The notes beneath the pieces were generated by a model that did not search any database, was not told the DNA's origin, and saw only the letters and a program-made list of their open reading frames with translations. DNA of 64,000 bases from Methylotuvimicrobium sp. KM2 (GTDB lineage Bacteria; Pseudomonadota; Gammaproteobacteria; Methylococcales; Methylomonadaceae), in NCBI RefSeq assembly GCF_038051925.1, contig NZ_CP150634.1, positions 558,001 to 622,000 on the forward strand, given 5' to 3'. Both the position numbers and the translations under genes were made by a program. This document shows positions 33,827 through 50,077 of this stretch, piece after piece; positions within the stretch are counted from its first letter, which is position 1; the number at the start of each line of letters is the position of its first letter.

Positions 33827-33982
33827 TCGGCATCATATGTTGGTAATGGAACCAAAAAAATCGAAAACAGACTTTGGGTGATGGATGATAAATAAAAGCT
33901 TAAGGGCCGTGAAGGTAGTAAAAAAAAAGGGCCGCTAGCAATTGCTTAAACAATAGCGTACTAGATTGGTCATAAATTTTGT

Positions 33983-34010
33983 TGACAAGCCTTTTCGAAA
34001 TGATAAACTG
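33983..34010 (+). promoter_or_regulatory. Probable sigma-70 promoter of pmoCAB
   Basis: A consensus TTGACA (33983-33988), 16 bases, then TAAACT (34005-34010), about 100 bases before the pmoC start. This leaves a leader of roughly 90 bases containing a short CGCCCTTCGGGG hairpin at 34071-34082. Assignment is by motif and position. Confidence 0.7.
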
Positions 34011-34110: not shown

Positions 34111-34863
34111 ATGGCTGCTACAACTGAGTCAGTTAAAGCTGATGCTGCAGAAGCACCACTTTTGAACAAAAAAAATATGATTGCCGGTGCATCTCTGTAC
34201 TGTGTTTTCTATGCTTGGGTTCGTTGGTATGAAGGCGTTTATGGTTGGTCCGCCGGCCTGGATTCGTTCGCGCCTGAATTCGAAACTTACTGGATGAACT
34301 TCCTGTACATCGAAATGGTGTTGGAAGTATTGACAGCTTCTGTATTGTGGGGTTACCTTTGGAAAACTCGCGATCGTAAAGTGATGTCAATCACTCCGCG
34401 TGAAGAGTTGAGAAGACATTTTACTCACTGGACATGGTTGATGATGTACGGTATCGCGATCTACTTCGGTGCTAGCTACTTCACAGAACAAGACGGTACA
34501 TGGCATCAAACGATCGTTCGTGATACTGACTTCACTCCAAGTCACATCATCGAGTTCTACTTGAGCTACCCAATCTACATCATCACTGGTGGTGCTTCTT
34601 TCTTGTATGCTAAAACAAGACTTCCAACTTACCAACAAGGTTTGTCTCTGCAATACCTGGTTGTTGTTGTAGGTCCGTTCATGATCCTGCCTAACGTTGG
34701 TTTGAACGAGTGGGGTCATACTTTCTGGTTTATGGAAGAATTGTTTGTTGCTCCTCTGCACTATGGCTTCGTCTTCTTCGGATGGTCTGCCTTGGGTGTA
34801 TTGGGTGTAATCAACATCGAGCTGGGCGCATTGTCCAAGCTGCTGAAAAAAGACCTGGCTTAA
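34111..34863 (+). CDS. pmoC: Particulate methane monooxygenase subunit C
   Basis: A 250-residue integral membrane subunit of particulate methane monooxygenase, which oxidises methane to methanol in intracytoplasmic membranes. Asp128, His132 and His145 have the same spacing as the PmoC metal ligands reported for Methylococcus (Asp156, His160, His173). The segment TDFTPSHIIEFYLSYP is strongly typical. AGGAGG (34099) gives a strong ribosome site. The gene is first in pmoCAB. Confidence 0.98.
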   Translation: MAATTESVKADAAEAPLLNKKNMIAGASLYCVFYAWVRWYEGVYGWSAGLDSFAPEFETYWMNFLYIEMVLEVLTASVLWGYLWKTRDRKVMSITPREELRRHFTHWTWLMMYGIAIYFGASYFTEQDGTWHQTIVRDTDFTPSHIIEFYLSYPIYIITGGASFLYAKTRLPTYQQGLSLQYLVVVVGPFMILPNVGLNEWGHTFWFMEELFVAPLHYGFVFFGWSALGVLGVINIELGALSKLLKKDLA

Positions 34864-34895
34864 TCGCTTAAGTCTTGAAAAAAACTATCTCCTGG

Positions 34896-34921
34896 TCGCT
34901 TCTTCTTTACCGAAGAAGCGA
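34896..34921 (+). promoter_or_regulatory. Hairpin between pmoC and pmoA
   Basis: TCGCTTCTTC and GAAGAAGCGA form a 10-bp perfect stem around TTTACC. No T-run follows, so it is more likely an mRNA processing or stability element than a terminator. Confidence 0.7.
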
Positions 34922-34977
34922 TTCAGAAAATAGTAAAAAATAAATAATAATTTTTAAATCCTTTAGGAGGTAAGCTA

Positions 34978-35721
34978 ATGAGCGCATCTCAATCAGCTGT
35001 TCGTTCACGCGCAGAAGCTGTCAAAGTTTCTCGTGCGATCGACTACATGATTCTCTTTACGGCGTTTTTTGTTGTTCTCGGTGGTTATCATATCCACTAT
35101 ATGTTGACCGGCGGTGACTGGGATTTCTGGACTGATTGGAAAGATAGACGTCTATGGGTAACTGTGGCGCCAATCGTTTCAATTACTTTCCCTGCCGCTG
35201 TTCAAGCTGTACTTTGGTGGCGCTATCGCATCGCTTGGGGTGCAACTTTGTGTGTCTTGGGTCTGTTGCTCGGTGAGTGGATCAACAGATACTTCAACTT
35301 CTGGGGATGGACATACTTCCCGGTTAACTTCGTTTTCCCATCTAACCTGATGCCAGGTGCTATCGTATTAGACGTCATCCTGATGCTTTCCAACAGCATG
35401 ACTCTGACTGCGGTTGTTGGTGGTTTAGCTTGGGGCTTGTTGTTCTATCCAGGTAACTGGCCAATCATTGCTCCATTACATGTTCCTGTTGAATACAACG
35501 GCATGATGATGACTCTGGCTGACCTGCAAGGTTACCACTATGTTAGAACCGGTACTCCTGAGTACATTCGTATGGTTGAAAAAGGTACACTGAGAACATT
35601 CGGTAAAGACGTTGCTCCAGTATCAGCGTTCTTCTCTGGTTTCGTAAGTATCTTGATTTACTTCTTGTGGCACTTCTTCGGAAGCTGGTTCGGAAGTGAA
35701 AAATTTGTACAAGGTTCTTGA
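34978..35721 (+). CDS. pmoA: Particulate methane monooxygenase subunit A
   Basis: A 247-residue membrane subunit, the usual PmoA length and the standard methanotroph marker. It contains GGDWDFWTDWKDRRLWVT and FNFWGWTYFPVNFVFPSN, the regions used for methanotroph typing, and several membrane helices. AGGAGG lies eight bases before ATG 34978. Codon use across the pmo genes is distinct from neighbours, with many GTT and GCT codons, as expected for very high expression. Confidence 0.98.
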   Translation: MSASQSAVRSRAEAVKVSRAIDYMILFTAFFVVLGGYHIHYMLTGGDWDFWTDWKDRRLWVTVAPIVSITFPAAVQAVLWWRYRIAWGATLCVLGLLLGEWINRYFNFWGWTYFPVNFVFPSNLMPGAIVLDVILMLSNSMTLTAVVGGLAWGLLFYPGNWPIIAPLHVPVEYNGMMMTLADLQGYHYVRTGTPEYIRMVEKGTLRTFGKDVAPVSAFFSGFVSILIYFLWHFFGSWFGSEKFVQGS

Positions 35722-35814
35722 TACAAACTTAATAATCAAAAAACCGCGGTATATTCATTTTGGATTTACCGGATGCTTATAAAACTATTAATTCTCTGTA
35801 ATAGAGGAGGATAT

Positions 35815-37059
35815 ATGAAAATAATAAAAGACAAAGTTGCTAAATTGTCCTTTGTCGCACTGCTGGTATCAGTAACAGCAGCGATGTTTTACACTCCGAC
35901 AGCATCTGCTCATGGTGAGAAATCACAGGCGGCATTCATGCGTATGCGGACTATTCACTGGTTCGACTTGAACTGGTCTAAAGACCAAGTTTCTGTCAAT
36001 GATACTATGTCAATTTCTGGTAAATTCCACGTTTTCGCGGGATGGCCGGAAACTGTCGATAAACCAGAAGTTGCTTTCTTGAACATCGGTATTCCTGGTC
36101 CTGTATTTATTCGTGCAGGTTCTTGGATCGGTGGTCAGTTGGTTCCACGTTCGGTAACGTTGGAATTGGGCGAAACTTATGAATTTAAAGTTTTGTTGAA
36201 AGCGCGTCGTCCAGGTGACTGGCACGTTCACACTATGATGAACGTTGAAGGCGGTGGTCCAATCATTGGTCCTGGTAAATGGGTAACTATTACTGGTAGC
36301 ATGGGTGATTTCAGAAATCCAATCACTACATTGACTGGTGAAACCATTGACCTGGAAACATATGCACTGGACGGTGTCTATGGATGGCACTTGTTCTGGT
36401 ACGCTTTGGGTGTGGCTTGGATGTTATACTGGTGTCGCAAGCCTGTATTCATTCCACGCAGAATAGCTGTTGACGCTGGTAAAGCCGATTCTTTGATCAC
36501 TCCAACTGATAAAAAAGTTGGTATGGCTTTCGCTGCCGGTACTATGGCTATCGTTGCTATCTCAATGGGTCAAGCCAACGAGAAATATCCTGTTACGACT
36601 CCATTGCAAGCAGGTTTGATGCGCGGTATTAAATCTTTGGAACTTCCACAACCTACAGTTTCTGTAAAAGTTGTTGATGCTTCTTACCGTGTTCCAGGTC
36701 GTGCAATGCAAATGACTTTGGAAATCACTAACAACGGTGATTCTGCAGTTCGTTTGGCTGAGTTCAACACAGCTTCTGTTCGTTTCTTGGATGCTGATGT
36801 ATATGAAGACGACACTAACTATCCAGATGATTTGTTAGCTGAAGAAGGTTTGTCTGTTAGCGATAACAGCCCACTTGCTCCAGGCGAAACAAGAACTGTT
36901 GACGTTACTGCTTCTGACGCAGCATGGGAAGTTTACCGTTTAGCTGACTTGATCTACGATCCAGACAGCCGTTTCGCGGGTCTGTTGTTCTTCATCGACG
37001 AAGACGGCAACCGTCAAATGACAATGGTAGATGCTCCATTGATCCCAACATTCATCTAA
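35815..37059 (+). CDS. pmoB: Particulate methane monooxygenase subunit B
   Basis: A 414-residue subunit with two periplasmic cupredoxin domains joined by two membrane helices. The signal peptide ends at about TASA-H, leaving His33 as the mature N-terminus. His33, His137 and His139 form the known dicopper-type site (DWHVHT), and His48 and His72 match the other reported copper ligands, all at the same numbering as the Methylococcus protein. I chose ATG 35815, since GAGGAGG precedes it and an upstream in-frame ATG at 35773 would place extra residues before the signal peptide. Confidence 0.98.
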   Translation: MKIIKDKVAKLSFVALLVSVTAAMFYTPTASAHGEKSQAAFMRMRTIHWFDLNWSKDQVSVNDTMSISGKFHVFAGWPETVDKPEVAFLNIGIPGPVFIRAGSWIGGQLVPRSVTLELGETYEFKVLLKARRPGDWHVHTMMNVEGGGPIIGPGKWVTITGSMGDFRNPITTLTGETIDLETYALDGVYGWHLFWYALGVAWMLYWCRKPVFIPRRIAVDAGKADSLITPTDKKVGMAFAAGTMAIVAISMGQANEKYPVTTPLQAGLMRGIKSLELPQPTVSVKVVDASYRVPGRAMQMTLEITNNGDSAVRLAEFNTASVRFLDADVYEDDTNYPDDLLAEEGLSVSDNSPLAPGETRTVDVTASDAAWEVYRLADLIYDPDSRFAGLLFFIDEDGNRQMTMVDAPLIPTFI

Positions 37060-37100
37060 TGAATAGCTTGGTCTAGTTATATAGACTAAGTAGGGTTAAG

Positions 37101-37133
37101 AGCCTCCGTGTTGAAAAACGCGGGGGCTTTTTT
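37101..37133 (+). terminator. Rho-independent terminator after pmoB
   Basis: AGCCTCCGTGTT and AACGCGGGGGCT form the stem around a GAAA loop, followed by a run of T. It lies 42 bases after the pmoB stop. Confidence 0.88.
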
Positions 37134-37299
37134 ATGCCTGTTGTTATCGTATTGGGTGGCTGTTTTTAGGTTTGATCATGAATGCAGGAAGTGGGGCTCT
37201 AGCAGTTGGCGGTTTAGGCGGCAATGAGTCTGATACTGGGGAACAAAAATTCTCCTGTATTTGCTGTATTCTGACGCTTTTATCACTCAGGGATGTCGA

Positions 37300-37626
37300 T
37301 GGGTGGCTAGCGGGGTAAATAAGTCCATGTAGGATCTATGCCGGCTGAGGGGCCGAGTACCCATACGCATCAAGCTAAAAACGCCCCCGATCTTTCTTGT
37401 TTGCTATTGAAGCGCGTAGCCCGGATGGAGCGTAGCGAAATACGGGAATGGCGTGGCTCCGAACTTCCCGGATTGCGCTACGCTCCATCCGGGCTACGCT
37501 GTTCAGGATCGCCGGAAGAGGTCCGTTGCGATTTAGTTGCGAGGATCTTTGCTTAGCTTGATGCGTATGGGCCGAACACCCCGAGGCCTCCTCCGGCACT
37601 GCCGAAAGTTGAAGTGCGAAAGGTAT
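37300..37626. repeat. Composite repeat: family 2 interrupted by a CCCATACGCATCAAGC element
   Basis: The outer sequence is a family-2 piece (AAGTCCATGTAGGATCTATG then CACCCCGAGGCCTCCTCC and GAAGTGCGAAAGGTATA at the right end). Inside, about 37360-37571, is an element with ends CCCATACGCATCAAGC and GCTTGATGCGTATGGG. That contains a long palindrome built on CGTAGCCCGGATGGAGCGTA (37415-37499). A partial copy of the inner element lies at about 47779-47950. No gene is visible in 37134-37300 or 37627-37908. Confidence 0.72.
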
Positions 37627-37908
37627 AAATTGACTAAGCCTTCTAAGAAAAGAGAGTAACTATTTGCGAGTATAAGCCTAAAACGAAAGGTTGAGCGCCT
37701 CAAGTTGCGGTTCGTCCTGGGGTGGTCGAAAGGACTGAGGTTTAACCAAGCTTATGAAAGTGTTGTGATCCCTTCATGCTTAGGCTTTTTAGCGTGGCAC
37801 AAACGGTCTGCAACGCATGCCGGGGGGGGGGCTCTTTTTAGGGTTAACCTAGGAGTGTGCATGAGACGGTTATGCAGTCGACAGGTTTTTTGGGTATGTT
37901 TTCATCGT

Positions 37909-38382
37909 TATACCCGTCTTAGATCAAAATTCGGCGTCTGGGTGCCCGCCAACGGACGCCGTGAAGGCTCTATGCCAGCTCCATGCCAGCGTTAGGGGAG
38001 GGGGTGAGCACATTGGCGCCAACTTAAGTAACGTTCATGAAGGCCCGGCAATCGCCAGGCAAATGAAAGTGCAAACTGTGGTGGATGCGGTCACTCGCCC
38101 GATAGGACGCCGTGAACCCAGCACCTAAATCATCCAAGATAGTTAACCATAGCCAATGGACTATGGAATTTAGGTGCTGGGTGAATACGTCCATGTAGGC
38201 TCGGCGGCGGCTATCCCTGCCGCCGACGCCTGTCGGTCGAGCAACCGCACCCTCCTCGGAACCGGTGTTGTTTTTCATAAAGCGGCAAATGCGCCATAGA
38301 ATGAGCGTTAAGTTGGCGCTTATGGGGGTGAGCACTCATAAGCCTCCTCTGGCCCTGTCGAAGTTTGAAGTGAGAAAGGTAT
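37909..38382 (+). repeat. Three-layer nested repeat
   Basis: The outer layer is family 2, TATACCCGTCTTAGATCAAA at the left and GAAGTGAGAAAGGTATA at the right. A second element sits between two copies of GGGGGTGAGCAC (about 37998-38009 and 38325-38336) and has ends GCGCCAACTTAA / TTAAGTTGGCGC; it contains a family-1 core. Inside that core, the 65-bp CCCAGCACCTAAAT element lies at 38117-38181 with TGAA on both sides. Confidence 0.78.
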
Positions 38383-38686
38383 ATATTGCGGTAGGCTTTG
38401 TGCGAATAGTTATAAAGTCGTGTGTTTTTATGCGGTGTGAATACGAACAAAAGTCGTAGTGTTAGTTGTCTGTCTTATGTGGCACTATAGGATCTATTGT
38501 CACAAGCAGAGGTTAAGAAATAGCTGTGTGGGGAATGCAAAAAGAAGAGCGGAAAATATAAGCTAGAAAAAGAAGTTTGATGATTAATCGAGGAGGCTGG
38601 AAAAAAATAAATTTTCAGCGAAAAAAGGAACTGATTGATGGGGAATAACGCGCAGGTAATAAAAGAGGTGGATTGGGTTGTTAATA
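38383..38686. other. Gap with no recognisable feature
   Basis: AT-rich sequence between the nested repeat and the small lipoprotein gene. GAGGAGGCTGG near 38590 resembles a ribosome site but no supported frame follows it. I see no gene, hairpin or repeat here. Confidence 0.4.
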
Positions 38687-38720
38687 TGAACCCGGCTTAT
38701 TAGAAATTAAGCCGGGTTCA
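38687..38720 (-). terminator. Hairpin downstream of the small lipoprotein gene
   Basis: TGAACCCGGCTTA and TAAGCCGGGTTCA form a perfect 13-bp stem with an 8-base loop, 12 bases beyond the lipoprotein stop. The following tail (TATTAACAA on the minus strand) has only a weak U content, so the terminator role is likely rather than certain. Confidence 0.7.
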
Positions 38721-38732
38721 TAAATTCAAAAC

Positions 38733-38849
38733 TTACAACCTAATAGTTGTATTTTCAACTTTTTGTTTGGAGCTATCGGGATCGTCCAGGCAGCCTGTTA
38801 AGCCAACAATCATTAATGCCATAGCTAAAAGTGATAAAACTTTTTTCAT
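38733..38849 (-). CDS. 38-residue small lipoprotein
   Basis: A very short frame beginning MKKVLSLLAMALMIVGLTGC, a complete lipoprotein signal with lipobox LTGC at residues 17-20. The mature peptide is only about 19 residues and acidic (CLDDPDSSKQKVENTTIRL). GGAGGATAGT gives a ribosome site at the right distance. A promoter (38917-38945) and a hairpin (38687-38720) bracket it, so it looks like an independent gene. It resembles entericidin-type peptides in layout only. Its place between pmoCAB and the HTTM-DCC gene may be chance. Confidence 0.75.
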   Translation of the reverse strand: MKKVLSLLAMALMIVGLTGCLDDPDSSKQKVENTTIRL

Positions 38850-38916
38850 ACTATCCTCCAAAAGAATTTATTTTTATATTAATAAAATTACAGTACTAAA
38901 TGCTTAGCACGGTATT

Positions 38917-38945
38917 TTTATATCATGGCAAAAAATTCTATGCAA
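38917..38945 (-). promoter_or_regulatory. Promoter of the small lipoprotein gene
   Basis: On the minus strand, TTGCAT (38940-38945), 17 bases, then TATAAA (38917-38922), about 68 bases before the start codon. Confidence 0.6.
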
Positions 38946-39090
38946 CATTTAAATTAAAATGAGCGTAGAAGTTATAAATGAAATGGAGTCGAAGATTGTT
39001 AAAAAAATAGACTAGTATGTTATTAAGTGGTTGTTATAAAAAAATAAAAAATTGCTAATTGTGCCGATTGTTGATTAAGCAATGGGTACG

Positions 39091-39210
39091 GCTATGGAAT
39101 TTAGGTGCTGGGTGAATACGTCCATGTAGATCCCTCCGCCTAGCGTTGGGTGAGGGATCGAGCAATCTAACTCATCCTTGGGTGCTGCCTAAATTTGAAG
39201 TTCGAAAGGT
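39091..39210 (+). repeat. Truncated family-2 repeat
   Basis: It starts within the nested element (ATTTAGGTGCTGGG then TGAATACGTCCATGTAG), includes the CCTCCGCCTAGCGTTGGGTGAGG hairpin, and ends with AAATTTGAAGTTCGAAAGGT. The left half of both elements is missing. Confidence 0.75.
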
Positions 39211-39241
39211 ATGGTTCAATCGTAAGGGCAAGGGCTTGTCG

Positions 39242-41191
39242 TTATTCGGGTGTTGAGGTGGGCCAATAACTTGATTGAGTAGAGATATTATCCAGCAATG
39301 TTTGGTTTAAATTGCTATGAAATTGCTGCTGTTTCCACTGGACTGCGCCTAGGTTTGACCATTCTCCGCTGAGGTTTTTATTGAGCAAATCATAAACCCA
39401 GTAGGACGGCGCTGAATTTTTCTTAATCTTGATCGTGAACAGGGCGTTATCAAGGTCTAGATGGAGTCTATGTGCCCAGTATGCAGTAATTTTCATGATC
39501 AGTTTGTTAAGTCTAGTGGCGTCAATATTCGGTGTGACAGCGATATTGGCCCACATTGAGTGAACGCGTCCCCAGTGAGGGGCTAATATCCGTCCTTCTT
39601 GGTTGATGAACGGCAGCCAGGCTTCATCTCCGTTATCGTTGGTGTAGGTGATTGCGAGTAACGTGTCGTACCCCTCAAAATGGTCGTGCAAATAAAGAGC
39701 ATGGGGTGTTATGCCGATGAATGAGTGGGATAGTAATAAAATGGAATTGCTGGCTTGAGTCATTGCAAGCATTAAGGGGTTGCTGCGTGTGTCGACATTA
39801 AGCCGGTATAGTAGTCCGTAGTGAATGGAGCTATTGATTTGTAGTATGCAAATGATTAAGAAGGCTTTGGTCAGTGTTTTTAAGTTTCTTCGTGACTGAG
39901 GGTTATTGGTCCCAAAAAAACGGCCATAAAAGCTGTTTAATTTGAATTGGGTTGTGTTTGGAATCGTGCAGTCTTGATTGCATGTTATGCGCTGTCTGTT
40001 ATCGGCTATGTTGCGATAAATAGCTTTGGCTAGATGATGAATGCCGGGGGTGCGGAGTAGCCAGCCAATTAAAAATGGATAGCGCATTTTCATTAGAATC
40101 TGGATGTAGGTGTTGATGCCGTTATAAACCTTACCGTTTTCGTCGACCGAATAAAGATCGGTCAGCAAGGTATCCAATGGCAGGGTAGATAGTGCGGGTT
40201 GTTTATTCGAATAAGTTTGAGCGTCCTTAAATTCAATGCATTTAAAAATATCGAAATGATTGACCGTTAATGCAGTGCGATTGCATAAAGGGCAGTCTTT
40301 GTCGTAGTAGACCAGTAATAAAGGCTGAGCGGGTCTAAGGGCTTTGGCTAAGCGGCGCCACCATGAAAAAGGAACCAGTAAGCTGTAAAAAATGAGCATG
40401 CCAAGGCCAAACGGATAAATATTTAGAGAAATCGTTATGCCAAGGTGTAAGCCAATGCCAATGAATAAGTAGAAGGGGCGTAAGTAGCGGTTTGAGAAAA
40501 AGAATATAAAGCTAAATTGGAACACAATAATGATATAGCCAATCGTCTTTTGTAATATTTCCTGATTAAGGAGCCAGGACATATTGATCGCGGATACATA
40601 ATATGGCTGTGTGGAGGGAAGCCAGGCTCCTAGGCCGTTTCGCCAGTGTTCGGCAAATAATTTATGAATCGCCGAGTCGAAATAAAGAAAGCCTAGGCAG
40701 ATAAAGACGGGAAGCTGGTAGCTCAGGCATGAAACAGTAGGTTTCGGGTGTTGAGAGTAATGGCGAAAGGGTGTGCTGAGTTTTAGTCTTAATTGGTCGA
40801 GCGCAAAGGCTTTGTCGGTCGGCATGAAGAGCAAAAAAAATCCTGATCCAGTCATGAATGCATCAAATCCGCCGTCAAAGTCTCGCTGCATGGGGGTGAA
40901 CTGTACAAAGATAATCCAAAAAAGGTAGCTTACAATTAATGCGTTTTGGCATTGGTAGCCAACGATTATGAATAAAGCAGAAACCGCCCAGAGACAAAGA
41001 AAAAAAGGAATGAGCGGGAACTCAACGTCAATGTAAGGAATTGGGTCGAAAATTAGATGATGGAAATATAATAAGAAGCAGATTTCTTGAAATAATACGA
41101 TGCCGTAGAGCAGTCGAAATAAGCCGATGCCGGTAGCTGGTGCGGGTTTGTTGTGCAGTTGGTGAAGCTTGTTGAAAATAAAATGATACAT
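39242..41191 (-). CDS. HTTM membrane protein fused to a DCC-type thiol oxidoreductase domain
   Basis: A 649-residue protein. Residues 20-280 hold about eight hydrophobic segments with the HTTM pattern (GIGLFRLLYGIVLFQE, QRDFDGGFDAFMTGSGFFLLF, HKLFAEHWRNGLGAWLP), related to the membrane part of vitamin-K-type gamma-carboxylases. A DCC1/DUF393 domain begins at 291 with LLVYYDKDCPLCNRTAL, giving a C300-x2-C303 redox pair. A further helix near residue 430 precedes a 200-residue soluble tail. Function is unknown; a membrane redox or modification role is inferred. It reads away from the small membrane protein gene at 41337, both on the minus strand, with a terminator between. Confidence 0.82.
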   Translation of the reverse strand: MYHFIFNKLHQLHNKPAPATGIGLFRLLYGIVLFQEICFLLYFHHLIFDPIPYIDVEFPLIPFFLCLWAVSALFIIVGYQCQNALIVSYLFWIIFVQFTPMQRDFDGGFDAFMTGSGFFLLFMPTDKAFALDQLRLKLSTPFRHYSQHPKPTVSCLSYQLPVFICLGFLYFDSAIHKLFAEHWRNGLGAWLPSTQPYYVSAINMSWLLNQEILQKTIGYIIIVFQFSFIFFFSNRYLRPFYLFIGIGLHLGITISLNIYPFGLGMLIFYSLLVPFSWWRRLAKALRPAQPLLLVYYDKDCPLCNRTALTVNHFDIFKCIEFKDAQTYSNKQPALSTLPLDTLLTDLYSVDENGKVYNGINTYIQILMKMRYPFLIGWLLRTPGIHHLAKAIYRNIADNRQRITCNQDCTIPNTTQFKLNSFYGRFFGTNNPQSRRNLKTLTKAFLIICILQINSSIHYGLLYRLNVDTRSNPLMLAMTQASNSILLLSHSFIGITPHALYLHDHFEGYDTLLAITYTNDNGDEAWLPFINQEGRILAPHWGRVHSMWANIAVTPNIDATRLNKLIMKITAYWAHRLHLDLDNALFTIKIKKNSAPSYWVYDLLNKNLSGEWSNLGAVQWKQQQFHSNLNQTLLDNISTQSSYWPTSTPE

Positions 41192-41255
41192 TTACTAGAG
41201 CATTATGCTGAATAAATGTATAAATTATAAGGTATTTAGCTTGGAGGTGGGTAGA

Positions 41256-41305
41256 AAAAACAAAGGCCGCCTCTAATACTTATCAGGATTAGCAGGGGCG
41301 GCCTT
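41256..41305 (-). terminator. Terminator of the 43-residue membrane protein gene
   Basis: AAGGCCGCC (41263-41271) and GGCGGCCTT (41297-41305) form a strong stem, extended by TAAT / ATTA. On the minus strand it is followed by GTTTTTTCTAC. Confidence 0.85.
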
Positions 41306-41336
41306 GTGATCTTTTTAAAACTAACGGGGCGTTAGT

Positions 41337-41468
41337 TTATTTGTCTTCGTCGTTAGGCTCAGCAAAAACCCATTTTACTAAGAAGTAGCCGGCTGCGATA
41401 ACGACAATCGCACCGATCATGCCAGCTGGTTCTTTTAACATTTCAGTCAAATCTAAGATCGCACCCAT
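41337..41468 (-). CDS. 43-residue single-span membrane protein
   Basis: It begins MGAILDLTEMLKEPAGMIG, passes through one helix (MIGAIVVIAAGYFLVKWVF, about residues 17-35), and ends in an acidic tail (AEPNDEDK). AGGTAGGA precedes the ATG. A near-consensus promoter and a strong terminator enclose it alone, which suggests an abundant short transcript. I do not recognise the family. Given the strong expression signals and its site about 4.3 kb after pmoCAB, an accessory membrane peptide for the methane-oxidising membranes is one possibility, but nothing in the peptide itself proves that. Confidence 0.78.
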   Translation of the reverse strand: MGAILDLTEMLKEPAGMIGAIVVIAAGYFLVKWVFAEPNDEDK

Positions 41469-41530
41469 GAGTGTCCTACCTGTGTTTTTATATTTTAGAA
41501 AATGCTATAGACATAGCAAATGAGCCATCA

Positions 41531-41558
41531 ATGATACTTTAGACACAGCTAATGTCAA
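41531..41558 (-). promoter_or_regulatory. Strong sigma-70 promoter for the 43-residue protein
   Basis: On the minus strand TTGACA (41553-41558), 16 bases, TATCAT (41531-41536): six of six and five of six consensus bases. The spacing equals that of the pmoC promoter. The leader is about 55-60 bases. Confidence 0.78.
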
Positions 41559-41679
41559 GTTTAATGTTGAAATTTTAAAGCGATGCGCAATTAAGTTAGG
41601 GGGAATGTAAAACTAGAGTAGCAGTAGGTGTGTGTTATAATCCGAAGGACCTATAAAATCAAAGTAAAAAGGTGGGAAG

Positions 41680-42069
41680 ATGAATATAAAAAAGAGCATA
41701 CATGCAATATGGCCCGCTGTTTTATTGGCTTTTGCAGCGAATGCGGAAGTCTTATTAAAAGATCAGTCTGAAATTCTGGGGAAATGGAATCTCTATGCGG
41801 AAGCCGCCAAATTGGAGGGGGAGAAAAAAGATCTGAGTATCGAATGGGACTTTAAAAGTGACGGGGTATTGAACACAAAGTCGATTGATAACTATGGGCG
41901 GACCAAGACATTTGAAGTGGCATTAAAATATTCTGTCGAAGACGGCATGATTAGAAAGCAATCGACTCCCGGACGTGAAAAATACGAATCCTGCAAAGTT
42001 ATTGAAAAATCGGATTCGGATATGATTTTGAAATGTACCTATCTCTTTTTCTTTTTGACTAAAAAATAA
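41680..42069 (+). CDS. Exported protein of unknown function
   Basis: A 129-residue protein with a signal peptide (first 22 residues, ending AANA-E). The mature part opens SEILGKWNLYAEAAKLEG and continues with alternating strands and two cysteines (ESCKV and LKCTY). The GKW start with short beta pattern recalls small lipocalin-like domains, but I cannot assign one. It is followed by another unknown membrane gene 23 bases on, likely the same transcript. Confidence 0.7.
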   Translation: MNIKKSIHAIWPAVLLAFAANAEVLLKDQSEILGKWNLYAEAAKLEGEKKDLSIEWDFKSDGVLNTKSIDNYGRTKTFEVALKYSVEDGMIRKQSTPGREKYESCKVIEKSDSDMILKCTYLFFFLTKK

Positions 42070-42092
42070 TAACTAAAACAGGAGGGTGTGTA

Positions 42093-42518
42093 ATGATTGG
42101 TGGTATTGTTATGATTCTGGTGGCCGTTTGGGTCTACCAGTCGGCTTCGCGAGCTAAAGTAGAAAAAATTCTTTTTTGGGTGGTTTTATGCTCTGTCGTT
42201 TTTTTAGCGGTTCAATTTACGGCGGTTTATTTCAATGTGTATTTACTCGAGACATTTAAAGACGGTGGCTTCGAAGGCGGCTATGAGCGGGATTTGGCTT
42301 CCATCGGCGACCGAAAAACTAAAGGTGGAATATTTCAAGGGTTTACCGGAACCCTGTTGTCCATTGTGTTTGAATTGATGCCGCCGCTTCTGGGTGTCTT
42401 AGCCGTTGCCTTTATTAGAACTAAGTTTATGCTCAAAGAGGCATTGACAGTTTCTAATTTATTTAGCGGAATGAAAGAGTTATTCGTCTCGATTAAGAAT
42501 AGTTTCAAACCGGAATAA
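42093..42518 (+). CDS. Membrane protein of unknown function
   Basis: A 141-residue protein with three hydrophobic segments, at about residues 2-16, 26-50 and 88-110. The loop between the second and third is charged and glycine-rich (ETFKDGGFEGGYERD). No known family is recognised. AGGAGGG gives a strong ribosome site. A terminator follows at 42537-42567, so it ends a two-gene unit with the exported protein upstream. Confidence 0.68.
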   Translation: MIGGIVMILVAVWVYQSASRAKVEKILFWVVLCSVVFLAVQFTAVYFNVYLLETFKDGGFEGGYERDLASIGDRKTKGGIFQGFTGTLLSIVFELMPPLLGVLAVAFIRTKFMLKEALTVSNLFSGMKELFVSIKNSFKPE

Positions 42519-42536
42519 TATCTCGTTTTACCAGGC

Positions 42537-42567
42537 AAAAAGCCCAAGTCCTGCTTGGGCTTTTTTG
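42537..42567 (+). terminator. Rho-independent terminator
   Basis: AAAAAGCCCAAG and CTTGGGCTTTTTT form a hairpin with a T-run, and an A-run on the other side. It can serve both the plus-strand gene ending at 42518 and the minus-strand gene ending at 42572. Confidence 0.9.
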
Positions 42568-42571
42568 TTGA

Positions 42572-42766
42572 TCAGCCAGTAATTTTTGCAACAAGCGATA
42601 CCAAAAGAGCGACAAAAAGAACAGTAAAAATAATGCCGACAATGATGTAAGTGGACAAGTTGCCGTGTTCGAAATCCCTTTGCCTATTTTTGTTGCTTTG
42701 TATGCCGACTGCGGCGGCGAAAACGCTTTTAATTACATTGAGTATCGTCGGTTTCGACATAATCAT
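42572..42766 (-). CDS. DUF2970 small membrane protein
   Basis: A 64-residue protein with the DUF2970 pattern: VIKSVFAAAVGIQSNKNRQR then DFEHGNLSTYIIVGIIFTVL, and one C-terminal helix (about residues 39-60). The family is widespread in beta- and gammaproteobacteria and has no known function. The start may be the second Met (42760). It faces metH, about 100 bases away, divergently. Confidence 0.85.
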   Translation of the reverse strand: MIMSKPTILNVIKSVFAAAVGIQSNKNRQRDFEHGNLSTYIIVGIIFTVLFVALLVSLVAKITG

Positions 42767-42865
42767 CTCCCTAAAAATCCGTTAAGCATAATGCGGCTCG
42801 ACAGCTTGTCAAGCCAAGCTTTATCCGGGTGTTATGCCCTTATTTAACTTCTAGCATGTAAGTAC

Positions 42866-45800
42866 ATGAATAAATTAGAAAACTTTAAAAAAAGACTGTC
42901 CCAAAGTATCCTGTTTTTAGATGGCGCTATGGGCACGATGATTCAAAGCTACAAATTGGAAGAAAAAGATTATCGGGGCAAGCGTTTTTCGGATTGGACT
43001 GTCGATCTAAAAGGTAACAATGATCTGCTGTCTTTGACTCAGCCGGATATTATTAAAGCGATTCATTGCGCTTATCTTGAGGTCGGCTGCGATATTATCG
43101 AGACGAATACCTTTAACGCGACGCAAATTGCGATGGCCGATTATCAAATGGAATCATTGGCCTATGAAATTAATTTGGAATCGGCGCGGATAGCTAGACA
43201 AGTTGCTGATGAATATAGTCAAAAAACACCTGAAAAGCCGCGCTTTGTTGCCGGTATTTTAGGACCGACAAACCGGACGGCATCGATGTCGCCCGATGTC
43301 AACGACCCCGGTTTTCGTAACATCGATTTCGATACCTTGGTCGATGCTTATACCGAAGCGATACGCGGCTTAATCGACGGCGGTGTCGATATTCTTTTGA
43401 TCGAAACGGTATTCGATACGCTCAATGCCAAGGCGGCTATTTTCGCGGTCGATCAATATTTCGAGGCGATCGGTTATAAGTTGCCGGTCATGATTTCCGG
43501 CACGATTACCGATGCTTCGGGCAGAACGCTGTCGGGCCAAACCGTCGCGGCGTTTTGGAACTCGCTCAGTCATATCGAGCCGATTTCGTTCGGCTTCAAC
43601 TGTGCCTTGGGTGCCAAAGAGCTTAGACAACATATCGAGGAATTATCATCGATCGCCGACACGCATGTGTCGGCTCATCCGAATGCCGGTTTGCCGAACG
43701 AGTTCGGCGAATATGATGAATCTCCGGAAGACATGGCCTTGGAGTTAGCCGATTGGGCCGCGAACGGTTATTTGAACATCATCGGTGGCTGCTGCGGCAC
43801 GTCGCCCGAGCATATCAAGGCGATCGTCGAGGCGGTCAAGCAATACCCGCCGAGAGTCGTTCCCGTCATTGAACGACAATGCCGCCTGGCCGGTCTTGAG
43901 CCGATGAATATCGGGCCGGACTCGTTGTTCGTCAATGTCGGCGAACGGACCAACGTGACCGGCTCGGCGAAATTTAAGCGCTTGATCGTCGAAGGCGATT
44001 TTGAAACCGCATTGGAAATTGCCAAGGATCAGGTCGAAAACGGCGCGCAAATCATCGACATCAACATGGACGAAGGCATGTTGGAGTCGAAAGAAGCAAT
44101 GGTGCGTTTTCTAAGCCTGATCGCTGCCGAACCGGATATCGCCAAGGTGCCGGTCATGCTCGATTCGTCGAAGTGGGACATTCTCGAAGCCGGCTTGAAA
44201 TGCATTCAAGGCAAGGGCGTCGTTAATTCGATCTCGTTGAAGGAAGGCGAAGAAGCCTTCATACAGCATGCCAAGTTGATACGGCGCTACGGCGCGGCCG
44301 CGATCGTGATGGCGTTCGACGAACAGGGCCAGGCCGATACGCGCGATCGAAAAATCGAAATTTGCAGCCGCGCCTATCGCATTTTGACCGAGCAATTGAA
44401 TTTTCCGGCCGAGGATATTATTTTCGACCCGAACATCTTCGCGATCGCAACCGGTATCGACGAGCACAATAACTACGGCATGGATTTCATCGAAGCAACC
44501 CGCGAGATTAAGCGGACCTTGCCGCATGCCCTGGTATCGGGCGGCGTGTCGAACGTGTCCTTTTCGTTCCGGGGCAACAACCCGGTCCGGGAGGCAATAC
44601 ATGCGGTATTTTTATTTCATGCGATCAAGGCCGGCATGGACATGGGTATCGTCAATGCCGGGCAATTGGCGATCTATGAAGACATTCCGCTGGAATTGCG
44701 CGATGCGGTTGAGGATGTCGTGCTCAATCGCAACGATCACGCGACCGAACGTTTGCTGGAGTTGGCCGAAAAATATCGCGGCGATGGCAGCACGGCAGCC
44801 AAACCTGAAGAGCTGGAATGGCGAAGTTGGCCGGTTACTAAAAGGCTCGAGCATGCCCTGGTTAAAGGTATCGCCGATTTCATCGACGAAGATACCGAGC
44901 AGGCCCGGCAAGAAGCCGAAAAACCGTTGCATGTGATCGAAGGCGCGTTGATGGACGGTATGAACGTAGTCGGTGATTTGTTCGGGGCCGGCAAAATGTT
45001 CTTGCCGCAAGTCGTTAAGTCGGCGCGGGTCATGAAAAAAGCGGTCGCGTATTTGATGCCGTTCATGGAAGCCGAGCAAAACGGAGAAATGCAGAGCAAC
45101 GGCAAAATATTGATGGCCACCGTCAAGGGCGACGTGCATGACATCGGCAAAAACATCGTCGGCGTGGTGCTGCAATGCAATAACTTTCAAGTCATCGACT
45201 TGGGTGTGATGGTGCCGGCCGAAAAAATCTTGCAGACCGCGCGCGATGAAAACGTCGATATCATCGGGCTGAGCGGATTGATCACGCCATCCCTCGATGA
45301 AATGGTGCACATGGCCAAGGAAATGGAGCGTCAAGGCTTCGATATTCCGTTGATGATCGGCGGCGCAACGACTTCAAGAGCCCATACTGCGGTCAAGATC
45401 GAGCCTAACTATCACGGTCCGGTTGTTTACGTCGCCGATGCCTCCAGAAGCGTCGGTGTGGCCAGTCATTTGGTCAGCGACGACTCCAAGGAAGCATTTA
45501 CCCAAAAAATCAAGGAAGAATACAAGGAAGTTCGGGAAAGGCATCAGGGGCGTAAAGCCAAGACCAAGCAGCATAGCATTGAGCAGGCGAGGCGTAATAA
45601 ATTCAATTGGACCGATTACGAGCCGGTCAAGCCCACCTTTTTAGGTACTAAAGTCATTGATCGCTTTCCTCTCGATACGTTGGTTTGGTATATCGATTGG
45701 ACGCCGTTCTTCCATACCTGGGAATTGGCCGGTAAATATCCCGATATTTTCGAAGACCGAGTCATCGGCGAAGAAGCTAGAAAACTGTTCGACGACGCGC

Positions 45801-46537
45801 AAGTGATGTTAAAAAAAATCATCAACGAAGAGTGGCTTCAGGCTCGTGCCGTTATCGGGTTCTACCCGGCCAACAGCGACGGCGACGATATCATTTTATA
45901 TAAAGACGATTCTCGCCTTGAAAAGCGAGAAATTTTGCATCATTTGCGTCAGCAAAGTGTCAAGGCGCCGGGGCGGCCGAATTATTGTTTGTCCGATTTC
46001 ATCGCGCCTATCGACAGCGGCAAGACAGATTATCTAGGTGGTTTTGCGGTAACGACCGGCATTGGCATCGAAGCTAAGCTCGAAGAATTCGAAAAAGACC
46101 ATGACGATTACAGCTCGATCATGCTCAAGGCCTTGGCGGACCGATTGGCCGAAGCCTTTGCCGAGTATATGCATGAAGCGGTCAGGAAGGATTTTTGGGG
46201 TTATGCAAAAGACGAACAATGGCGTAACGAGGAGCTGATAGCCGAGTCTTATCAAGGCATAAGGCCGGCTCCGGGGTACCCGGCTTGCCCGGATCATACC
46301 GAAAAGAGCAAATTGTTCGAGTTGCTCAATGTGACTGCGACGACCGGAATAGAGTTGACCGAGAGTTACGCGATGTATCCGGCCTCGGCGGTCAGCGGCT
46401 GGTATTTTTCGCATCCTGAAGCCCAGTATTTCAATGTCGGCAAGATCGATCACGATCAACTCGAAGACTATGCGCGCCGAAAAGGCATCGCGAAGGAAGT
46501 GGCTGAGCGGTGGTTGTCCGCGCATTTGCATCACTGA
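42866..46537 (+). CDS. metH: Cobalamin-dependent methionine synthase
   Basis: A 1223-residue enzyme that transfers a methyl group from methyltetrahydrofolate to homocysteine using B12. Domains in order: homocysteine-binding (about 1-330, with IETNTF and the zinc cysteines GGCCGTS), folate-binding (about 350-610, [14 protein letters not shown]), cobalamin cap and binding (about 650-890, with [14 protein letters not shown] carrying the Co-ligand His), and reactivation domain (about 900-1223, [12 protein letters not shown]). Length equals that of E. coli MetH. I see no cobalamin riboswitch in the short upstream gap. Confidence 0.98.
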
Positions 46538-48079: not shown

Positions 48080-50077
48080 ATGTAGTGCCATAAAATGCCT
48101 TAGGCATCTTGCGCCGCCTCGCGGTTTGCGCTAAGTTGACGGCATGTTTATTCGACGCACTCAAACCCGCTGCAGAGCCACCGGCGAACCTCATGAGACT
48201 TATCGACTGGTTCATTCCGAACGCATCGGTCAAAAAGTTAAACAGGTCACACTGCTGAATCTAGGCCGGCATTTTTCGATCCAGCCCACTTTTTGGCCGG
48301 CCTTATGTCGCCGTGTCCTGGAGTTGTTATCGTTGCAAACGAGTTTATTCGATCCGGACTTACCTCAGACGGTGGCCTTGGCCGCGGAACATATCGCCGC
48401 GCGCTTGTTGGCGGAAAGCGCGCCATTGCTCGTGAGGCTTTCGTTGATCCCGACCCCAGCCATGAGTGTCGTCAATGAAGCCGCACAGGCGGCTTCGGAA
48501 TCGGTCTCGTCGGAGCCACCGGAGTCCCGGACTCCCGCTGAAATATATACCATTGATGCGAACTCGCTGGAATTAGCGAGGCCCCGTTCGATCGGTGTCG
48601 AGCAGGTCGGTTTGGCGGCGATGGACTTGGTCAATTTTACCTCGCTGCTGATGGGACTGGGTCTCTCCGGGCCGATACGGGCGGCGGTCGTGGGTTCGAT
48701 CATCGGGCGCATGGCAGCGCCGGCTTCTGAGGCCGCCACGCACCGTTGGCTAGGTCAGCGCAGCGGTTTGGGCGAGCTGTTGGACGTCGATTTCGAACGC
48801 ATGAAGCCGATCACGTTGTATCGGGCTTCAGACGCTTTGATGAAGCACCGGGACGTCATCGAACGCACGCTGTTCAACCGGGTGCACGATCTGTTCGGTT
48901 TCGAGACCACGGTTACCTTATACGACTTGACCAATACCTACTTCGAAGGCACGGCGGCCGCCAATCCGAAAGCGCAACGGGGCCGCTCCAAAGAAAAGCG
49001 CCGCGACTGTCCACTGGTCACGCTGGGCTTGGTGCTCGATGGCAGCGGCTTCGTCCGCCGTTCCCAGACCTTCGACGGCAATGCCTCGGAAGGCAAGACC
49101 TTGGCCGAGATGCTCAAAGACCTCGGTGCACCACCCGGCGCCTTGGTGGTCATGGACGCAGGCATCGCCACGGAAGCCAATCTCACCTGGCTGCGCGAAC
49201 ACGGTTACCGCTATCTGGTCGTCAGCCGCGAACGCGCTCGGCAATTCGAAGCCGACACCGCGATCCCGATCGAAACCGCCGCCGGCTCCGCCGTCCACAT
49301 CCAGCGCATCGACGACAGCGAACACCAAGAAGTGCGCTTGTATTGCTACTCCGAACAGCGCGAACAAAAAGAGCGCGGCATCAATCAACACCTGTGCGAG
49401 CGCTTCGAAGCCGGATTACAAAAAATCGCCGACGGCCTCCACAAGCCTCGCGCCGAAAAGCGCCTCGACAAACTGCAACAGCGCATCGGTCGGCTCCAAG
49501 AAAAATACCACGGTATCGGCCAGCATTACACGATCGAACTGACCCCGGATGAGACCGGCGAAAAAGTCATCGGCCTGACCTGGTCGAAACAGCCCAAAGC
49601 CGGCAGCCGCCTGAGCCATCCCGGCGTCTATTGCCTCCGCAGTAACGAAACGCAATGGGATGCTGAAAAACTGTGGCGCACCTATATCATGCTCACCGAC
49701 CTGGAAGCGGTGTTTCGTAGCCTTAAATCCGAACTCGGGCTTCGTCCGGTCTACCATCACAAAGAAGTCCGCGTCGACGGCCATTTGTTCATCACCGTCC
49801 TGGCCTATCAGTTCGTGCAAATCATCCGCCGGCAACTGAAAGAACACGGCATTCACGACCGCTGGTCCACACTGCGCGACATCTTGTCCGTTCAGCAGCG
49901 CGTCACCGCCTCCTTCCGGCGCGCCGACGGCGGTATTCTGCACATCCGCAAAAGCACACAACCGGAAGCGGAATTAGCACGGATTTACCACACATTGGGC
50001 CTTGACCCGCTTCCTGGAGGTGTACAAAAAACTCTACTATAGATCGAATTACGCTTAAAAAACGCCTATGTAGTGCC
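48080..50077 (+). mobile_element. IS1634-type insertion sequence
   Basis: The element is recognised by its transposase (48144-50042). Short direct repeats ATGTAGTGCC occur at 48080-48089 and 50068-50077 and may be the target duplication or part of the ends. I could not find convincing terminal inverted repeats by eye, so exact borders are uncertain. Confidence 0.65.
48144..50042 (+). CDS. IS1634-family transposase
   Basis: A 632-residue DDE transposase. Catalytic-region landmarks are YDLTNTYFEG, VVMDAGIATEANL, and near the C-terminus DLEAVFRSLKSELGLRPVYH, with FITVLAYQFVQIIRRQL following. It appears full-length with no internal stop. GC content is higher than that of the flanking sequence, consistent with mobility. 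Confidence 0.92.
   Translation: MFIRRTQTRCRATGEPHETYRLVHSERIGQKVKQVTLLNLGRHFSIQPTFWPALCRRVLELLSLQTSLFDPDLPQTVALAAEHIAARLLAESAPLLVRLSLIPTPAMSVVNEAAQAASESVSSEPPESRTPAEIYTIDANSLELARPRSIGVEQVGLAAMDLVNFTSLLMGLGLSGPIRAAVVGSIIGRMAAPASEAATHRWLGQRSGLGELLDVDFERMKPITLYRASDALMKHRDVIERTLFNRVHDLFGFETTVTLYDLTNTYFEGTAAANPKAQRGRSKEKRRDCPLVTLGLVLDGSGFVRRSQTFDGNASEGKTLAEMLKDLGAPPGALVVMDAGIATEANLTWLREHGYRYLVVSRERARQFEADTAIPIETAAGSAVHIQRIDDSEHQEVRLYCYSEQREQKERGINQHLCERFEAGLQKIADGLHKPRAEKRLDKLQQRIGRLQEKYHGIGQHYTIELTPDETGEKVIGLTWSKQPKAGSRLSHPGVYCLRSNETQWDAEKLWRTYIMLTDLEAVFRSLKSELGLRPVYHHKEVRVDGHLFITVLAYQFVQIIRRQLKEHGIHDRWSTLRDILSVQQRVTASFRRADGGILHIRKSTQPEAELARIYHTLGLDPLPGGVQKTLL

Follow-up and report, generated by a model that had tools for sequence, protein, structure and literature searches.

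A 43-codon gene between pmoCAB and a metH-like gene, on the minus strand of the 64,000-nucleotide stretch of Methylotuvimicrobium sp. KM2 analysed here (the window), encodes a conserved membrane peptide. With moderate confidence, we read its product as a single-helix inner-membrane protein that serves methane-type pMMO, most likely as a small accessory subunit bound to PmoABC. The initial annotation had suggested an accessory peptide of the methane-oxidising membranes on the basis of gene position and signal strength; that role is strongly supported by phylogenetic distribution, but not by position or by the promoter spacer, and the association with PmoABC itself is presumed. Co-distribution, purifying selection, a recurring promoter, in most cases a terminator, and a two-helix, single-span shape all count in favour of a subunit, and because the distribution fits, we suppose that the peptide serves methane-type pMMO alone. 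In the arrangement that we propose, the peptide would be made from its own promoter and would be a small accessory subunit bound to the trimer of PmoABC within the membrane, with its membrane helix packed against the trimer and its short amphipathic first helix resting at the membrane surface, and it may stabilise the trimer or its array. Binding to PmoABC, its stoichiometry and its effect are predictions.

The gene and its product

The gene and the signals around it are the following.

41558-41531, minus strand: promoter TTGACATTAGCTGTGTCTAAAGTATCAT, TTGACA-16-TATCAT (promoter scan)
41501..41520, minus strand: possible 5' leader hairpin, GCTA/TAGC (compensatory changes among host-family relatives)
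41466..41481, minus strand: ribosome site AGGTAGGA and start codon (sequence)
41468-41337, minus strand: peptide gene, 43 codons (open reading frame and homologues)
41318..41338, minus strand: hairpin AAACTAACG-CCC-CGTTAGTTT at the stop codon (hairpin scan, which lists it on the plus strand)
41305-41255, minus strand: intrinsic terminator, a GC-rich hairpin followed by TTTGTTTTTT (folding)

The frame at 41468-41337 translates as MGAILDLTEMLKEPAGMIGAIVVIAAGYFLVKWVFAEPNDEDK and has the single membrane helix and acidic tail first described for it. In the structure model (mean pLDDT 83.6) a helix of residues 3-12 is followed by a second helix of residues 14-34, with a proline at position 14; the first is amphipathic and the second includes a typical membrane span, with an invariant tryptophan near its end and the acidic tail beyond it. 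Such a single-helix peptide would be expected in the inner membrane. It has no cysteine. Six residues (M1, G2, I4, L5, P14 and W33) are invariant among 24 aligned sequences; a copy outside that alignment, from genome G761, has V at position 4. Copies in one family outside the class, that of genome G435, have 37 residues and are nearly tail-less, and the acidic tail is therefore dispensable for the peptide family.

Among 130 distinct coding sequences, representing 89 distinct peptides, the median pairwise dN/dS was 0.105 over 3,220 pairs, restricted to those of intermediate synonymous divergence and calculated from the first 36 codons. Since dN/dS among homologues is near 0.1 and the position of the promoter recurs across the order, the frame is a real gene under purifying selection. 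Neither Pfam nor NCBIfam has a family that matches the peptide above its curated cut-off, and a fold search with the structure model returned just two matches, both with E above 6.

Distribution within the host family and order

In the host family the peptide is encoded by 144 of 151 genomes, which represent 29 of its 29 genera, and nearly always in a single copy; G091 shows a further full-length match. Here pmoA was detected in 130 of 151 genomes, so that 125 have both genes, 19 the peptide alone, five pmoA alone and two neither; a profile search of the five pmoA-only genomes found no full-length peptide, and three genomes with pmoA and without the peptide (G087, G127 and G145) are 95-99% complete. 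The 19 and the five count against a subunit, and assembly gaps may lie behind both groups. As both genes are near-universal in the host family, their co-occurrence there is uninformative.

Across the order, a single-sequence query found the peptide in 173 of 201 genomes and pmoA-type genes in 166 of 201. Two other pmoA-bearing families, f4 and f6, have the peptide; in family f2 two genomes combine a diverged peptide with pmoA and a third has neither. A profile search of 14 genomes of family f7, among them 12 with a lower-scoring CuMMO, found no full-length peptide, and the CuMMO-bearing genomes of families f3 (one) and f8 (two) gave none either. We infer that f7 is a Cycloclasticus-like family, and likewise the CuMMO types of f7, f3 and f8. 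A pattern scan of 84,980 species, with patterns that would miss the form found in the family of G435, returned 203 loci encoding a relative, and the 80 loci kept from it carry methanotroph names or unspecific ones (e.g., uncultured proteobacterium). A lack of homologues in related methanotrophs, which would have told against the initial annotation, is clearly contradicted: they were found all through the host family, in further families of the order and outside the class, named Methylocystis plasmids included.

Distribution outside the order

Of 398 genomes drawn from the phylum, two besides the window's own, G350 and G435, had a CuMMO scoring over the cut-off, and the only other strong full-length peptide was that of G435, which lies outside the class. 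G350 belongs to the same class as the window and has three CuMMO copies with a CuMMO score above that of G435, yet no peptide, which counts against a subunit. The family of G350 gave no full-length peptide in 51 genomes; CuMMO is confirmed there for G350 itself, and its members are presumably ammonia oxidisers. With no full-length copy in the genomes searched of this family, f7, f3 and f8, the peptide appears not to be a subunit common to all copper membrane monooxygenases.

The family of G435 is more informative about methane-type pMMO. Among its 149 genomes a full-length peptide (48 bits or more) is present in 11 of the 11 with pmoA and in one of the 138 without. That exception, G658, is a draft genome of genus g208, of which five other peptide-bearing members have pmoA. 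The association is strong when kinship is ignored (Fisher p 9e-16), and the peptide here occurs where methane-type pMMO does and, G658 apart, nowhere else, as expected of a subunit. In a smaller draw from this family, sMMO was found in six of 114 genomes, three of which have pmoA and the peptide and three neither (G652, G680 and G713); two of the latter, G680 and G713, share genus g296 with G761, which carries both pmoA and the peptide. The status of G680 and G713 is read from their absence in complete match lists, and their membership of the draw from the numbering. Because these three genomes with sMMO and no pmoA have no peptide, its presence tracks pMMO rather than the ability to oxidise methane in general. 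The family is probably alphaproteobacterial and probably includes Methylocystis, as near-identical copies of its peptide sit on three Methylocystis plasmid records. On none of the three is a gene listed under the match, in a gene table that is incomplete; two of the copies are on M. parvus OBBP pMpar-2 (L209:12001-12111, with a TTG start) and on a plasmid of Methylocystis sp. MJC1 (L210:12001-12111). The window peptide itself had no plasmid match.

Weaker matches were treated as chance: partial ones of up to 25.1 bits in the phylum draw and up to 16.4 bits in the profile search of the five genomes and the order, and, among genomes of the G435 family, three with E close to 0.008, with four of 14-18 bits in the family of G350. 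Second matches in G435 and G749 (25.9 and 30.6 bits) were excluded from the peptide family. They come from a 39-residue frame, MCDGEGLGLIQMAMTP...RWV, seen at loci L176 and L200 (G435) and L199 (G749), that resembles the peptide from residue 5 onwards at 26-31 bits. At L176 it lies between genes that by eye are MerR-like and MerP-like, a setting reminiscent of mercury resistance, and it is perhaps a distant paralogue serving metal resistance.

The same distribution would be predicted if the peptide bound no particular partner and shaped or stabilised the internal membranes that house pMMO, through lipids and curvature. Internal membranes accompany pMMO, and sMMO-only methanotrophs are without them; an amphipathic N-terminal helix joined to one membrane span would suit such a role, and so would the lack of a matching chain in pMMO structures. 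Members of ammonia-oxidiser families can also have internal membranes, however, and the 51 genomes of the presumed ammonia-oxidiser family of G350 yielded nothing beyond the four partial matches. The invariance of M1, G2, I4, L5, P14 and W33 among the 24 aligned sequences suggests specific contacts. We regard membrane shaping of this kind as unlikely and prefer an accessory subunit of pMMO.

Transcription signals

The promoter and ribosome site of the initial annotation were both found, the former as TTGACA-16-TATCAT and the latter directly upstream of the ATG. With 11 of 12 matches, the promoter is the best promoter-like site in positions 36000-46000, an interval that holds nine such sites against a shuffle mean of 16.4; as this count is below that of the shuffles, the promoter match alone proves nothing. 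Among upstream regions of the relatives, scored after duplicates among 137 distinct copies and regions of fewer than 150 upstream bases had been left out, 75 of 124 have at least 10 of 12 matches, with a mean of 9.5 against 8.25 in first-order shuffles, and many single regions are individually non-significant. An element TTGAC[A/T]-16/17-[T/A]AnnnT stands 50-115 bases upstream of the ATG in 72 of 89 distinct peptides (a raw count); it is seen in the host family, f4 and f6, and none was found in alphaproteobacterial-type copies.

Most host-family copies have an extended motif, TTGACWTTA-N7-CTAAAG-TAnnAT, in which CTAAAG forms the end of the spacer. This motif, which was derived from the peptide gene and its relatives themselves, matches the window once with no mismatch, where 0.01 matches are expected at up to three mismatches; in 2.2 Mb of loci picked around the peptide it occurs, at up to four mismatches, 89 times before the peptide and 24 times elsewhere (with two to four mismatches). 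The promoter of pmoC (TTGACA-16-TAAACT, 33982-34009) likewise has a spacer of 16 bases, as had been pointed out at the outset, but the resemblance is weak and CTAAAG is missing from the pmoC promoter; we rejected the idea that the promoters show the peptide and pmoC to be co-regulated. At 42785-42812, also on the minus strand, another TTGACA-16 promoter-like site overlaps a terminator-like hairpin immediately before the metH-like gene.

Between promoter and ribosome site, the possible leader hairpin is paired in 90.7% of 150 cells across 30 host-family sequences, with 14 cells changed on both sides. Paired cells and covariation exceed all 500 shuffles, while two of five measures fall within them (double-sided pair changes were matched in 113 of 500 and pair types in 375 of 500), and the leader of the window copy alone folds preferentially in another way (z-score 0.24). 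Downstream, the GC-rich hairpin with its T-run is present at 41305-41255 as described (z-score -5.8 for 41255-41340); a simple hairpin scan did not list it, its loop presumably being longer than that scan permits. A terminator above 95% of mononucleotide shuffles was found in 82% of 89 downstream regions and in just one of the seven listed f4 regions.

Small single-span peptides with strong promoters and their own terminators include type I toxins. The gene might encode a short hydrophobic peptide of toxin-like or stress function, or simply be an inherited gene of the lineage, with only an accidental link to pMMO; being near-universal in the host family, it gives a correlation of little weight there. 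This we consider improbable, given nearly always one copy per genome (two in G091), strong purifying selection, the lack of the gene, in a family of another class, from all but one of the genomes without pmoA, even within a genus, and a search of viral contigs in which none was found to encode the peptide. A gene maintained for pMMO remains the reading that we prefer.

Genomic neighbourhood

The genes on either side of the peptide, and the pmo operon, are arranged as follows.

34111..37059, plus strand: pmoCAB, PF04896, PF02461 and PF04744 (domain search), with a promoter-like site at 33982-34009
39242..41191, minus strand: DCC1-like (PF04134) protein of 649 aa with weak SdpB-family similarity, downstream of the peptide
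41680..42069, plus strand: 129-aa protein, probably exported (by eye), no Pfam family, divergent neighbour
42093..42518, plus strand: 141-aa protein, by eye likely to be in the membrane, without a family above cut-off, divergent neighbour

The stretch from 39242 to 42518 forms a conserved cluster, in which the DCC1-domain gene and the 129-aa and 141-aa genes surround the peptide. The unit had been described as isolated, which holds for its transcription signals but not for its setting in the host family, where neighbour genes are conserved. A frame of 632 residues at 48144-50042 appears transposase-like by eye.

These neighbours raise the prospect that the peptide is a small subunit of some other complex that accompanies pMMO, for electron delivery or maturation, with the DCC1-domain protein and the two divergent neighbours as its partners. 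Within the host family, the DCC1-domain membrane-protein gene lies downstream of the peptide in 24 of the 27 regions where the peptide was located (two of 29 regions were left out, their peptide having been missed by the search pattern), and at both f2 loci examined the DCC1-domain gene, the two small genes and the peptide are all on one strand. At E 1e-3, however, none of the three neighbours was found beside the peptide in 14 regions of f4 and f6 or in one of G435, and they are therefore not general partners, a role for which we rejected them; moreover, the peptide has no cysteine to offer a thiol-disulfide enzyme. We judge such a complex to be quite unlikely, and a subunit of pMMO itself to be the better explanation.

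Closeness to pmoCAB, noted from the outset, recurs without being general. Distances of 4-8 kb between the peptide and pmoA are seen in five host-family genera (g1, g3, g6, g25 and g29); in g3 two genomes show this distance and a third about 24 kb, and in g29 three of four genomes show it. In g11 (Methylomonas-type), eight single-contig genomes have their listed pmoA matches over 100 kb away from the peptide. The gene is neither in nor adjoining the pmo operon, and it is unlinked in many genera, which counts against a subunit; so does the finding of a single peptide gene in genomes that have the pmo genes twice.

Structures of pMMO

The available text of PMC8098663 describes a helix without identity in the crystal structure of pMMO from Methylocystis sp. 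Rockwell (4PHZ), a single helix associated with pMMO as we propose for the peptide, which is itself carried by Methylocystis plasmids. That text, so far as it could be drawn on here, assigns no sequence to the helix, and identity with the peptide is a candidate only. In a map of Methylococcus pMMO in isolated membranes there are densities outside the model which, in the excerpted account, the authors regard as potentially lipids (PMC9445010).

Among PDB chains with assigned residues, neither the window peptide, its f4 variant, the alphaproteobacterial-type homologue nor the profile found a match, and the sequence is thus not present as a chain in any pMMO entry within a search that covered 9cl1-9cl6 and 11ll, chains made solely of unknown residues being outside the library. 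This counts against a subunit. The f4 variant used as a query is one that we take to represent Methylococcus. The 9cl entries reportedly come from native membranes, and a study of 2025 is said to have found identifiable extra helices in them; if so, those extra helices are probably other proteins. Either the helix of the peptide has been left unassigned, or the assigned helices belong to other proteins, or the peptide is lost on purification. We count the peptide as a candidate for the helix in 4PHZ.

Sequences of other extra helices were sought among small membrane-protein candidates in 2.0 of the 3.37 Mb of a Methylococcus-like genome. Of 85 such candidates, 24 were run against the PDB as one concatenated query, and eight sequences matched, RnfA/NqrE and MlaE-type chains with no pMMO entry among them; a stricter first filter had given 14 such candidates in this genome. 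The same genome has frames at L282:19549 and L283:1520 with a repeated FLSCLCGSE, probably translated repeat DNA.

Known systems and significance

Small extra subunits with one helix have precedents. CydX and CcoQ are supernumerary one-helix subunits of respiratory enzymes, usually encoded in the operon of the enzyme; the peptide resembles them in size, in its single span and in its conservation with one enzyme, but differs in that its gene is a separate unit. PmoD, which likewise has a membrane helix, is presumably comparable as an accessory protein in methane oxidisers, although we take it to be much larger and copper-binding, and it reportedly occurs in ammonia oxidisers as well, whereas the peptide is cysteine-free and the presumed ammonia-oxidiser family gave no full-length copy of it in 51 genomes. 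AmoX, AmoY and AmoZ are small helical membrane subunits of a copper membrane monooxygenase that, according to the accessible part of PMC10030591, were recognised from their conservation and the linkage of their genes together with native gels and proteomics. As described there, they have one or two predicted spans, are larger (AmoY 9.6 and AmoZ 12.8 kDa), are unique to ammonia-oxidising archaea and are linked to amo in some families; the comparison is by description. In the open-access literature searched, we found no paper that names the peptide gene for bacterial pMMO. Small extra subunits of copper membrane monooxygenases were thus already known, and the peptide would add a new family to them, its physical association with the enzyme being presumed.

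pMMO is the main methane-oxidising enzyme of methanotrophs, and its activity, in the part of PMC9445010 available to us, is 5-10 fold lower in membranes than in cells, and in detergent lower again by about 10 fold. In its boldest form, which we put forward tentatively and hold to be somewhat short of probable, our interpretation is that proteobacterial pMMO has a fourth, separately encoded one-helix subunit, overlooked for its size, that this is the unassigned helix, and that it helps to explain the loss of activity on purification. With a conserved microprotein linked to pMMO there is a definite sequence to try in the maps already available, and a single gene that can be deleted in a tractable host such as Methylotuvimicrobium; supplying the peptide might help recombinant pMMO.
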